Assembly: GCA_944321885.1 (NCBI GenBank)
Contig: CALUNB010000017.1
Span: 1 to 44,872 of the forward strand
DNA: 44,872 nt
Direction of reading: 5' to 3'
Source: an uncultured Bacteroidales bacterium
GTDB taxonomy: Bacteria; Bacteroidota; Bacteroidia; Bacteroidales; P3
Shown: positions 26,869-33,029 of the stretch, in pieces
Layout: each line of letters starts with the position of its first letter
Numbering within the stretch: position 1 is the first letter of the stretch
The notes under the pieces: model-generated
The model's database searches: none
Seen by the model: the letters and a program-made list of their open reading frames with translations, nothing else
What the model was told of the DNA's origin: nothing
Program-made: the position numbers and the translations under genes

Positions 26869-26992
26869 TGCCACCGTTTGGGAATGGGATATCCGGCCTC
26901 TGGAAAATGGCTTCACAGGAAAAGTGGTTCCCCTTGGGATTCCGGGCTTGCGAAAGCTTTTGAAACGTTTCCGGATGGGCATTCAAGAACCT

Positions 26993-27015
26993 GTCCGAGG
27001 GCGATTGCCCCGGAC
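26993..27015 (+). promoter_or_regulatory. Hairpin upstream of phoU start
   Basis: GTCCG-A-GGGC (26993-27002) pairs with GCCC-CGGAC (27007-27015) around a 4-base loop; the only flaw is one bulged A. It ends 16 bases before the phoU ATG, directly before a purine-rich stretch, so it could affect translation initiation. Confidence 0.5.
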
Positions 27016-27031
27016 GAAAAAAGAAAAAGAT

Positions 27032-27724
27032 ATGGAATTGATGAAATCGAAAATAGAACAGGCCATCGAGCTGATGAACGAGGATTTCAGGGTGTTTTCC
27101 ACCTTGGTCCTGAAACAGTTGGATTTGCTTAAAAAGATTTATCCTGCCAAGGACGAAATCCGGGACGAACGGATGCACGAACTGGAAATGAACGAGAAGG
27201 TTTTGGATGGCCTGGAAGTCAAGATGCGGGAGGAAATCGTCCGCAGCATCGTTTTGTACGGACCCCGGGCCAGCGATTTACGCAAAATCATGGCCTATTA
27301 CGACATGTCTTCTTATTTGGAAAGGATGGGCGATTTGACCAAGAACCTTGCCGAATATGAAGTGCAGCTTCGTTCGGTTTCCCCGGCTTTGGTGCGGATC
27401 CGGGAGCGTTTGTTCGAGTTGTTGGCCGTGTCGGAGAAAATGGCCCAAAATGCTATTTTTGCTTTTACTTGTGAAGATAATCTGTTGGCTCGCGACACGA
27501 TAGCAAAAGATAACGTGGTGGACGAGATGCAAGCCGGGATAACACGGAGCCTGATTGAAGTGCCGATGGATGAGTTAGGGCAGGACGACCTCCGTGATGT
27601 GGTGTGCATGAGCGGCATGGCTTACAACATGGAGAGGATTGCCGACCATGCCACCAACATTGCCGAGTCGGCTCTTTTTCTGATGGAGGGCCGGGATTGG
27701 AAGCACAAGGACGGTAATTTCTGA
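27032..27724 (+). CDS. phoU: Phosphate transport regulator PhoU
   Basis: Cytoplasmic negative regulator linking the Pst transporter to PhoR. The 230-residue, all-helical protein has two PhoU three-helix repeats, each with the acidic metal-binding pattern: residues about 85-115 (YYDMSSYLERMGDLTKNLAE) and about 195-215 (AYNMERIADHATNIAE). These E-x-GD and ERIADH motifs are diagnostic. The start at 27032 follows an A-rich segment and a hairpin. An inverted-repeat element begins at the base directly after its stop codon. Confidence 0.93.
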   Translation: MELMKSKIEQAIELMNEDFRVFSTLVLKQLDLLKKIYPAKDEIRDERMHELEMNEKVLDGLEVKMREEIVRSIVLYGPRASDLRKIMAYYDMSSYLERMGDLTKNLAEYEVQLRSVSPALVRIRERLFELLAVSEKMAQNAIFAFTCEDNLLARDTIAKDNVVDEMQAGITRSLIEVPMDELGQDDLRDVVCMSGMAYNMERIADHATNIAESALFLMEGRDWKHKDGNF

Positions 27725-27892
27725 GAAGCTGTTTAAATTTATTTGTTTAGGCCATCGGGAGGGGATTTGGAGGGATGGGTCGAGCATCGCTCAACCCAGA
27801 GCCGAAATAGCCCCCGATGGGCAAACAAAATCCTGAAACTGGTCCCTGAAAATTCAGCCTTTTCAGGATTGTAAGAAATTTTAAACAGCTTC
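27725..27892. mobile_element. Inverted-repeat structured element (MITE-like) between phoU and phoB
   Basis: A 168-bp element whose ends are inverted repeats: GAAGCTGTTTAAA at 27725-27737 and its exact complement at 27880-27892, extended by TTT/AAA. Inside, TTTGTTT (27742-27748) pairs with AAACAAA (27823-27829) and CCATCGGG (27752-27759) with CCCGATGG (27813-27820). GGGT-C-GAGC (27777-27785) forms a hairpin with GCTC-A-ACCC (27789-27797). The right arm holds a separate hairpin, AATCCTGAAA (27829-27838) with TTTCAGGATT (27861-27870). It codes for nothing recognisable. A 71-bp partial copy occurs at 31918-31988 with 4 mismatches. No convincing target-site duplication was seen. It could be a non-autonomous transposable element, or an extragenic repeat or RNA. 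Confidence 0.7.
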
Positions 27893-27973
27893 CGAGCAGG
27901 CATGGGGCGCTGTGCTGCCGGGAAGAAGTTTTTTTTGCAAACGGGGATCCCAGGGTTCCCAAAAAGGAAAGAA

Positions 27974-28672
27974 ATGGAAAAAGCGAAGATATTGATTGTG
28001 GATGATGAAGAGGACCTCTGCCGCATTTTGCAATTCAATCTGGAAAATGAGGGGTATCAGGTTTTTGTGGCCTATTCAGGGGAGGAGGCATTGGAGAAAT
28101 TGGATACGTCTTTCCATTTGGTGTTATTGGATGTGATGTTGGGCGGAATGAACGGCTTCGAGACGGCCAACGCTATCCGGAAGCAGAAGAAATTGGATGT
28201 CCCTATCATTTTCCTTACGGCCAAGGATACGGAAAACGATTTGCTGACCGGTTTCAGCCTCGGGGCCGACGACTATATTGCCAAACCCTTTTCCATCAAG
28301 GAGGTGAATGCGCGTGTAAAAGCCCTGTTAGGCCGGACCCGCTACCTCCACCAGGAGCCGGGGACAGGATTGTCCGCCACGTCTTGGGGCGACGGGAAGC
28401 TCAAGGTGGACTATTCACGCAAGGATGTGTTGGTGAATGGTTTGCCAATCCAGTTGACCCGTCGGGAATTCGAGCTTTTCCGGTTGTTGTTCGAAAGCCC
28501 GGACCGCGTTTTCTCCCGCGAGGAAATCCTCAAGACGGTCTGGCCCGAGGACGGCTGTGTCCTGGATCGCACCGTGGACGTGCATATCACCCGTTTGCGC
28601 AAGAAATTGCATGATTATGGAAGCCGGATCATGAACCGATCCGGTTACGGGTATTATTTTTCCACTTTGTAG
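27974..28672 (+). CDS. phoB: OmpR/PhoB-family response regulator
   Basis: A 232-residue two-component response regulator: receiver domain (ILIVDDEEDL with the acidic pair, phosphorylated Asp in LVLLDVMLGG near 53, Thr in FLTAK and Lys in AKPF) followed by an OmpR-type winged-helix DNA-binding domain (LTRREFELFRLLFESPDRVFSREEIL, then RTVDVHITRLRKKL and GYGYYF). The pst/phoU neighbours and the histidine kinase directly downstream support a PhoB role; the symbol rests on that context. Its target is probably the 11-base repeat array before pstS. The ATG at 27974 is the family start; the frame extends to 27902. Confidence 0.92.
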   Translation: MEKAKILIVDDEEDLCRILQFNLENEGYQVFVAYSGEEALEKLDTSFHLVLLDVMLGGMNGFETANAIRKQKKLDVPIIFLTAKDTENDLLTGFSLGADDYIAKPFSIKEVNARVKALLGRTRYLHQEPGTGLSATSWGDGKLKVDYSRKDVLVNGLPIQLTRREFELFRLLFESPDRVFSREEILKTVWPEDGCVLDRTVDVHITRLRKKLHDYGSRIMNRSGYGYYFSTL

Positions 28673-31355: not shown

Positions 31356-31364
31356 ATTTAAAAG

Positions 31365-31711
31365 GGATGACCCGGGCTGTCGCTGCATGGCAGCATGCAG
31401 AGGAAAGTCCGGGCAACACTGAGCCACCATACTTCCTAACAGGAAGGCGGCCGCAAGGCTGACAGCAAGTGCCACAGAAAATAACCGCCGGTTTTCCGGT
31501 AAGGGTGAAAACGTGAGGTAAGAGCTCACGCGGGACATGGTGACATGCTTCCGGGGTAAACCTTATGGGTTGAAAGATCAAATATACCGTATGTCAAGGT
31601 GGGCTCGGCCGAAGACGGGGGGTAGATCGATAGAGCAGTCCGGTGACGGCCTGCCGAGATAAATGACAGCCGCCTCTTTGGAGGTACAGAACCCGGCTTA
31701 CAGGGTCGTCC
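31365..31711 (+). ncRNA. rnpB: RNase P RNA (bacterial type A)
   Basis: Catalytic RNA of RNase P, which trims tRNA 5' leaders. Conserved blocks are present: GAGGAAAGTCC from 31400, ACAGAAAATAACCGCC from 31474, the run of AAGGGTGAAA near 31500, the GGTAAGAGCTCACG block near 31515, GATAAATGACAGCC near 31659, and ACAGAACCCGGCTTA from 31687. The ends pair as helix P1: GGATGACCC (31365-31373) with GGGTCGTCC (31703-31711, one G-U pair), followed by five T residues. The boundaries given follow that helix and could be off by a few bases. About 347 bases, normal for this class. Confidence 0.95.
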
Positions 31712-31825
31712 TTTTTATTCTGGATTGGAAAAACCGTTGTGCTTCTTGCCTTTCCCCTATGGGAGCGTTTTCCGCGAAACATTCGGAGATCCCCAAGAAA
31801 GATGGTCTGGAGAGAAGAGCATAAT

Positions 31826-31917: not shown

Positions 31918-31988
31918 CAAACAAAATCCTGAAACCGGTCCCTGAAAACTCAGGCTTTTCAGGATTGCAAGAAATTTTAAACAGCTTC
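31918..31988. repeat. Partial copy of inverted-repeat element, touching korB stop
   Basis: This 71-bp stretch matches 27822-27892 with 4 differences and no gaps. It includes the terminal GAAGCTGTTTAAA (complement at 31976-31988) and the hairpin AATCCTGAAA (31925-31934) with TTTCAGGATT (31957-31966). It begins at the base after the korB stop codon (minus strand), just as the full copy begins after the phoU stop codon. Read on the minus strand the hairpin is followed by TTTTGTTTG, so it may help terminate korAB. Confidence 0.75.
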
Positions 31989-33029
31989 TTACTTGATTTC
32001 CCAAGTATCGCCGCTGTTGAGCAAATCGTCCATGCACTTGATTTTGGACTCTTTTTTCGCTTTTTCGATTTGGTCTTCCAGCAATTGGTTGTAGGTCATG
32101 GCACGGGCCGAACGGATTACACCCATGGCGACCGGGAATTCCGGCAAGTGCATTTTTGCCAGCATCAAGTGGATACCCGGATCCTGGGCGTATTGGTCGT
32201 GGACCAGGATGTTCCTTTCGGTGATACCGTCCTTGCCGATTTCAACCACTTCCAGACGGGTCCCGTTCAAACGGATACCCTTGTTGCGTTCCTTTCCGAA
32301 AATCATCGGTTTGCCGTGTTCCAGAACCAGCTGGTGGTCTTCACGCACATCCTTTCCAGTGATGGCGGCATGAGCTTTATCGTTGAAGATAACGCAGTTG
32401 TCCAAGACTTCGATGACCGCGCAACCATCGTGCATGGCGGCTTCCCGCATGGCTTGCGACATCAATTTGATGTTGTTGTCCGGTACACGGGCAAAGAACG
32501 TTCCTTGGGATCCGATGACCAATTCCCCGGGATTGAACGGATGTTCGATGGTTCCCATCGGGGAGGTCTTGGTAATGGCTCCCATCGGGGAAGTGGGCGA
32601 GTATTGTCCTTTGGTCAGGCCGTAAATCTGGTTGTTGAACAAAAGGATGTTCACGTCCATGTTCCGGCGGATGATATGGATGAAATGGTTTCCCCCGATA
32701 GCCAAGGAGTCGCCATCCCCCGTGCTGATCCAGACACTCAGGCCCGGGTTGGAAATCTTTACCCCCGTCCCGATAGCGTTGGCCCGCCCGTGGATGCCGT
32801 GGAACCCGTAGGTATTCACGTAATACGGGAAACGCGAGGAGCAACCGATACCCGAAACGTTCACGTATTTTTCCTTTTGATAGCCAATTTCGGGGAAAAT
32901 GTTCTCCATCGCGGCCAAAATGGCGTGCGAACCGCAACCGGGACACCATTTGACCATCTGGTCGCTGGCAAAATCCTGTTTGGTCAATTTGACCGATGAT
33001 TTATCTATGGCAATTTTCATTTTTTGCAT
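31989..33029 (-). CDS. korB: 2-oxoglutarate/2-oxoacid:ferredoxin oxidoreductase, beta subunit
   Basis: Thiamine-diphosphate-binding beta subunit of a cytoplasmic 2-oxoacid:ferredoxin oxidoreductase, 346 residues. It shows WCPGCGSHAIL near residue 28, SGIGCSSRFPYY, the thiamine-diphosphate/Mg motif GDGDSLAIGGNHFIH and NN (LLFNNQIYGLTKGQ), and SPTSPMG. This is the KorB type. The enzyme couples oxidative decarboxylation to reduction of ferredoxin, which can feed the hydrogenase in this window. Another start at 33020 (MKIAIDKS) is possible. It follows korA after 48 bases, so they form one operon. Confidence 0.94.
   Translation of the reverse strand: MQKMKIAIDKSSVKLTKQDFASDQMVKWCPGCGSHAILAAMENIFPEIGYQKEKYVNVSGIGCSSRFPYYVNTYGFHGIHGRANAIGTGVKISNPGLSVWISTGDGDSLAIGGNHFIHIIRRNMDVNILLFNNQIYGLTKGQYSPTSPMGAITKTSPMGTIEHPFNPGELVIGSQGTFFARVPDNNIKLMSQAMREAAMHDGCAVIEVLDNCVIFNDKAHAAITGKDVREDHQLVLEHGKPMIFGKERNKGIRLNGTRLEVVEIGKDGITERNILVHDQYAQDPGIHLMLAKMHLPEFPVAMGVIRSARAMTYNQLLEDQIEKAKKESKIKCMDDLLNSGDTWEIK

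Follow-up and report, generated by a model that had tools for sequence, protein, structure and literature searches.

We found that the 168-bp element at positions 27725–27892 (+ strand) of the window, the whole 44,872-nt stretch of Bacteroidales DNA analyzed here, is very probably an inserted and shortened copy of a high-copy MITE. An IS5-family (IS1031-type) transposase acting in trans likely mobilised it, and fold prediction gives its RNA a three-way junction within what is likely a phoU-phoB transcript. The element, which derives from a 282-bp form by internal deletion, was defined by repeat search, fold and size-class comparison. The terminal inverted repeats, GAAGCTGTTTAAA on the left (27725–27737, + strand) and TTTAAACAGCTTC on the right (27880–27892, − strand), were exact over 13 bp, confirming what a preliminary description of the locus had reported, and a repeat finder extended them to 16 nt at 94%. 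That description had also drawn a closing stem, a long arm with a GGGT..GAGC-type hairpin and a second arm, and the predicted + strand fold reproduced all of these as a three-way junction. On the + strand of this RNA fold the long arm spans 27743–27828 and carries the GGGTCGAGC..GCTCAACCC hairpin, with the apical hairpin GGGTCGAGCATCGCTCAACCC at 27777–27797, and the second hairpin arm (AATCCTGAAA..TTTCAGGATT) occupies 27829–27870. The fold energy was -73.2 kcal/mol for the + strand (z -6.9) and -69.6 kcal/mol for the − strand (z -7.6), and for either strand none of the 200 shuffles was as stable. A gene caller based on codon usage, a script written for the present analysis, called no gene inside 27725–27892, in agreement with the earlier statement that nothing recognisable is encoded there; one mechanical 99-aa frame on the minus strand (27739–28038) overlaps the element. 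A covariance-model search of the 168 bp against Rfam gave no family at the gathering threshold, and a search of four loci (L242, L013, L009 and L357) at E <= 1 gave two matches, both outside the elements.

The upstream host gene is phoU (26975–27724, + strand; gene caller and the Pfam PhoU domain) and the downstream one encodes a phoB-type response regulator (27974–28672, + strand; gene caller and the Pfam domains Response_reg and Trans_reg_C). The left copy of the target duplication, at 27722–27724 on the + strand, is TGA, the stop codon of phoU, and the right copy, at 27893–27895 on the same strand, is CGA with one mismatch to TGA; the duplication of the window copy is therefore imperfect. 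At the corresponding locus of a congener (L209, CALUHO010000026.1) both phoU and phoB were present while the MITE was absent between them, and alignment with the window gave 77.4% identity for phoU and 75.8% for phoB. The window's CTGA, element and CGAGCAGGC correspond to CAGAGCAGGC at this empty site, where the triplet matching the window's CGA reads AGA. The two congeners differ in the spacing of phoU and phoB, and most of that difference is due to the MITE.

When we searched the genome from which the window comes (the own genome) with the 168-bp element, at least 67 matching pieces were obtained from the 40 of 120 first-look candidates that were scored. The 13-base end, with at most one mismatch, occurred 93 times in forward and 93 times in reverse orientation in this 2.47-Mb genome, as compared to 1 and 3 times for a reversed-pattern control. 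Searches with the 18-base ends, in which two mismatches were allowed, gave 91 right and 88 left ends, two lists that share a few places, and none for the control. The preliminary description had proposed a DNA search for further copies and had named an absence of other copies, or conservation only at phoU-phoB, as evidence against its reading; both are excluded by the dozens of copies found elsewhere in the own genome and by the phoU-phoB gap at L209, which lacks the element. The exact 13-mer end was present in 4 of the 13 genomes of the genus. One own-genome copy had flanks 100% identical over 400 + 400 bases to CALUFR010000134.1. No match was found among viral contigs with a 23-base exact pattern of the window's MITE family, among plasmids with the window element as query, or among phages with a sister-family element as the sole query. 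The flanks of a seemingly nested copy of 480 bp in the own genome (C33:28554-29033; L040) share 90-93% identity with those around a 402-bp copy in congener G001, and the two copies are likely an insertion common to both species. The window itself holds a solo right half of another copy, consisting of the second arm and the right end, at 31918–31988 (+ strand). It adjoins the TTA at 31989–31991, the TAA stop codon of a − strand ORF (31989–33029) that carries a TPP-enzyme domain, and lies near a class A bacterial RNase P RNA at 31364–31716 (263.3 bits).

We then analyzed the target duplications of the family. An exact 3-bp duplication was found at 56 of 70 paired ends in the own genome, and it was TNA in all 56; the 70 pairs, which include 5 under 120 bp, were drawn from 76 in fetched stretches, and doubly used ends were assigned to exact duplications, which introduces a slight bias toward exactness. 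Duplication lengths of 1, 2 and 4-8 matched in only 0 or 1 of the 70 pairs. The target consensus of the own-genome insertions was YTNAR. In congener G002, 42 of 46 copies had exact duplications and 40 of these 42 were TNA; these copies came from 40 fetched stretches which, like the sister-genus copies described below, are selections from all the places found. The element is short and non-coding, with inverted ends, dispersed copies, a target duplication and an empty site in a relative, the features expected of a MITE. The MITE reading of the preliminary description was supported, since the copy number, the 3-bp duplications, the empty site at L209 and the IS5-family-like ends together identify the element as a MITE. 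We also observed that the 13-bp end of stretches at L239 and L253 is identical to that of the MITE while their interiors appear unrelated, suggesting that one type of end may serve several mini-elements. A second inverted repeat, AACCCAAATCGGTCATTAG.../...CTAATGACCGATTTGGGTT, was detected by eye at about 1140-1300 of L287, with pieces in L255 and L301. It occurs in both genera, beside or inside MITE-type elements, and is perhaps a second mobile family.

The candidate partner transposase was found in a sister genus. Locus L272 contains at 119-1036 a 918-bp IS5-type element. The left end of this element is GAAGCTGTTTAAA, the right end differs from the 13-mer at 3 positions, and TGA flanks it on both sides. 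Its ORF encodes a 266-aa transposase that matched the IS5 model NF033580 at 218.9 bits (cut-off 110), as well as PF13340 and PF01609. Decayed transposase pieces were present at locus L287 of congener G002, where the end GAATCTGTTTAAATTTATTT agrees with the left end of the MITE at 19 of 20 bases and adjoins a MITE copy. At one PF01609 locus of the congener (L062), a MITE-sized pair of ends lies beside the transposase, not around it. The preliminary description had regarded copies with a transposase inside as the proof of a MITE; such copies were not obtained, and the L272 transposase had 0 matches in the own genome, whose assembly is 98% complete. The two PF01609 pieces of the own genome have no flanking MITE ends, and searches of that genome for an autonomous parent with PF01609, PF13359 and the L272 transposase gave none flanked by such ends. 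Some known MITEs have lost their partner IS, and the missing partner therefore weakens only the claim of mobilisation within the same genome. Elements of the IS1031 group are described as generating 3-bp TNA duplications, and one of them has ends starting GAACCTGTC.. (in the part of PMC12016507 consulted). Since the L272 transposase has no match and the PF01609 pieces are unflanked in the own genome, we infer mobilisation in trans: an IS5-family transposase, of IS1031 type by its target and ends and not by a transposase tree, would be the likely mobiliser, and it may be gone from the own genome.

The unique copies of the window's family fell mainly into classes of about 204 and 282 bp, with one copy each of 168 and 169. 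A 282-nt copy was predicted to form a multi-arm fold (z -9.2), and a 204-nt copy had a z of -9.1. The shorter size classes correspond to the 282 form without whole predicted hairpin arms. In the window copy, 114 nt of the 282-bp consensus are missing internally, and the junction of this deletion lies at 27778–27779 (+ strand), which is position 54/55 or 55/56 of the element. We ranked the deletion placements by fold energy for the 45 of 61 shortened copies that could be covered; the other 16 fitted no single deletion within 30 mismatches. The 114-nt deletion of the window copy tied for the best energy (rank 4 of 141 placements, four being equal) and that of the main 204-nt class (31 copies) ranked 4 of 177, while a third class of 3 copies ranked only 21 of 176. 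Two-sided changes were found in 7 of 61 predicted pairs of the 204 class (50 copies), with 20 two-sided cells as compared to 4.1 in shuffles and 0-8 when the structure was slid, and in 2 of 85 pairs of the 282 class (28 copies). The copies have a mean column identity of 93%, and the covariation test has little power because they are so similar. An excess of G-U over A-C was absent in both classes, with events of 13:7 in the 204 class and 8:14 in the 282 class, and the corresponding cells were 4:9 in a small third class. The + strand was the more stable one in 49 of 50 copies of the 204 class and 26 of 28 of the 282 class, and composition explains little of this.

A sister genus of the same family harbors elements with identical ends and TNA duplications but a different interior. 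Among 68 extracted copies, the duplication was exact in 50 (all 50 TNA) and the length was exactly 162 nt in 48. Setting aside 6 duplicates and 8 copies outside 150-168 nt left 54 unique copies, 53 of which were aligned, with L294 left out. In this alignment 97.2% of the cells pair, and two-sided changes occurred in 27 of 52 predicted pairs, 14 of them in one internal helix; there were 166 two-sided cells, as compared to 44 in shuffles and 16-32 with the structure slid. We also examined a set of 10 pairs chosen with G-U forbidden, in which the departures were 9 G-U cells against 1 A-C cell and the parsimony events were 15 WC-to-WC, 7 WC-to-GU and 1 WC-to-AC. The consensus fold was -29.7 for the + strand and -10.8 for the − strand. 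The + strand was more stable in all 54 unique copies, by 21.8 kcal/mol on average, of which about 10.6 came from composition. The covariation, the G-U bias and the strand stability suggest that selection has acted on the RNA of one strand. The structured-RNA reading of the preliminary description was backed by covariation in the sister family and only weakly in the window's own (7 of 61 pairs). A model of the sister family, R1, matched the window element only weakly (E 0.0084), a match that may rest on the common ends. When 8 long sister variants were compared on both strands with the 282-nt interior, one local alignment was unreached by 300 shuffles. Four sister-genus variants of 207-265 nt (L240, L241, L247 and L318) contain extra hairpin-like internal sequence that recalls the modular arms found in the window's family.

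These observations led us to weigh several explanations of the fold and of the position of the element. Bacterial MITE hairpins are often regarded as incidental, and deletions bounded by hairpins are a known form of mutation. The fold could be a side effect of inverted repeats and palindrome-prone replication, arising by hairpin-bounded deletions and correction between arms, with RNA selection playing no part in the window's family. The window's family has few covarying pairs and shows no excess of G-U over A-C, both strands fold well, and hairpin-bounded deletion would give the observed junctions too, just as hairpin-bounded slippage could also yield the best-folding ones. The sister family speaks against it by its strong covariation, its 9 G-U against 1 A-C and its 15 WC-to-WC events, as does the preference for the + strand in nearly every copy of both families, and we give this explanation somewhat less than an even chance. 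With slightly more doubt, we suggest only tentatively that Bacteroidales MITEs of this type may be vehicles of strand-specific structured RNA, which would spread as DNA by IS5-type transposition while selection would act on the fold at the RNA level, so that only deletions preserving the fold would amplify.

The remaining alternatives concern effects on the host. In the stop-codon test we used exact-duplication copies only, with solo ends excluded and with copies inside called genes (4 of 56 in the own genome and 3 of 42 in G002) set aside. A dedicated stop-codon-targeting element would account for the left duplication being the phoU stop and for the solo half at 31988 adjoining another, and there was a mild excess of copies on stop codons, with 11 of 52 in the own genome as compared to 5.8 expected (P 0.016) and 4 of 39 in G002 as compared to 1.4 (P 0.040; 1.2 expected and P 0.018 when weighted). 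When weighted for target preference, however, the own-genome expectation rose to 7.3 and the P value to 0.060; moreover, among the non-genic copies 41 of 52 and 35 of 39 were off called stop codons, and TAA and TGA are already among the TNA targets, which makes such an element quite improbable. An ERIC-, Correia- or BIME-type processing or attenuation element, kept for its effect on co-transcribed genes, is unlikely, though slightly less so: such effects have been described for other folded small repeats (in the parts consulted of PMC3049150 and PMC2229807) and the window copy likely lies within the phoU-phoB transcript, but copies occurred in all four neighbor-strand arrangements and the orientation bias relative to tandem neighbors was not significant (29 sense, 19 antisense). 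The position between both genes and the stable fold would also suit a cis-regulatory RNA of the phosphate locus, a riboswitch or attenuator specific to phoU-phoB. Many copies lie on other contigs, the L209 gap is without the element, no Rfam match was found, and sigma-70-type promoter and terminator scans each gave 0 sites, so that we regard this as hardly credible; a locus-specific phosphate riboswitch was ruled out by the copy number and the empty site. In 340 bases scanned with a Bacteroidetes -7 motif there were 5 matches at one mismatch, and TTG lay upstream of none of them. A secondary effect of the element on phoB expression is possible.

Most likely the element is selfish, and the folding of its RNA on itself would make insertions within transcripts tolerable. 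A transposase acting on the ends would have inserted the element into the TGA stop of phoU, and the target duplication would have preserved that stop codon intact. Since copies can land inside transcripts, lineages with a self-folding RNA would be tolerated and could amplify, and deletions or substitutions would survive if they left the fold intact. A family with rigid length, compensatory stems and a one-strand G-U bias would allow a test of RNA-fold selection on mini-transposons, and the dozens of insertions in one genome could be compared with expression data.

The element belongs to a known kind, the MITEs, and behaves as such, and our literature search found no published title on the window's MITE family. 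Pneumococcal BOX and RUP reside in hosts of another phylum than that of the window. Set against the window element by description and not by sequence, BOX and RUP are MITE-like with extensive predicted RNA structure, BOX having modular variants (in the part of PMC3049150 consulted), while Caulobacter CIR and Neisseria Correia/NEMIS are short repeats with folding transcripts; CIR is two-armed like the window element, but unlike it CIR is without terminal inverted repeats and Correia/NEMIS have TA termini (in the part of PMC2229807 consulted). The IS1031 group of IS5 shares with the window element the 3-bp TNA duplication and ends that start GAA.CTGT (from the same part of PMC12016507), whereas the window element has no transposase and its partner was found only in the sister genus and, in decayed form, in a congener. 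BrickBuilt, 464/PgRS, MITE293 and MITE700 of Porphyromonas gingivalis are also Bacteroidales MITEs with IS5-family terminal repeats and predicted stem-loops, and covariation is not mentioned for them in the text consulted (PMC4596501). BrickBuilt is described there as having GAGACCTTTGCA-like ends, duplications of variable length and a minisatellite inside, whereas the window element is distinguished by a uniform 3-bp TNA duplication and an interior with a branched fold.
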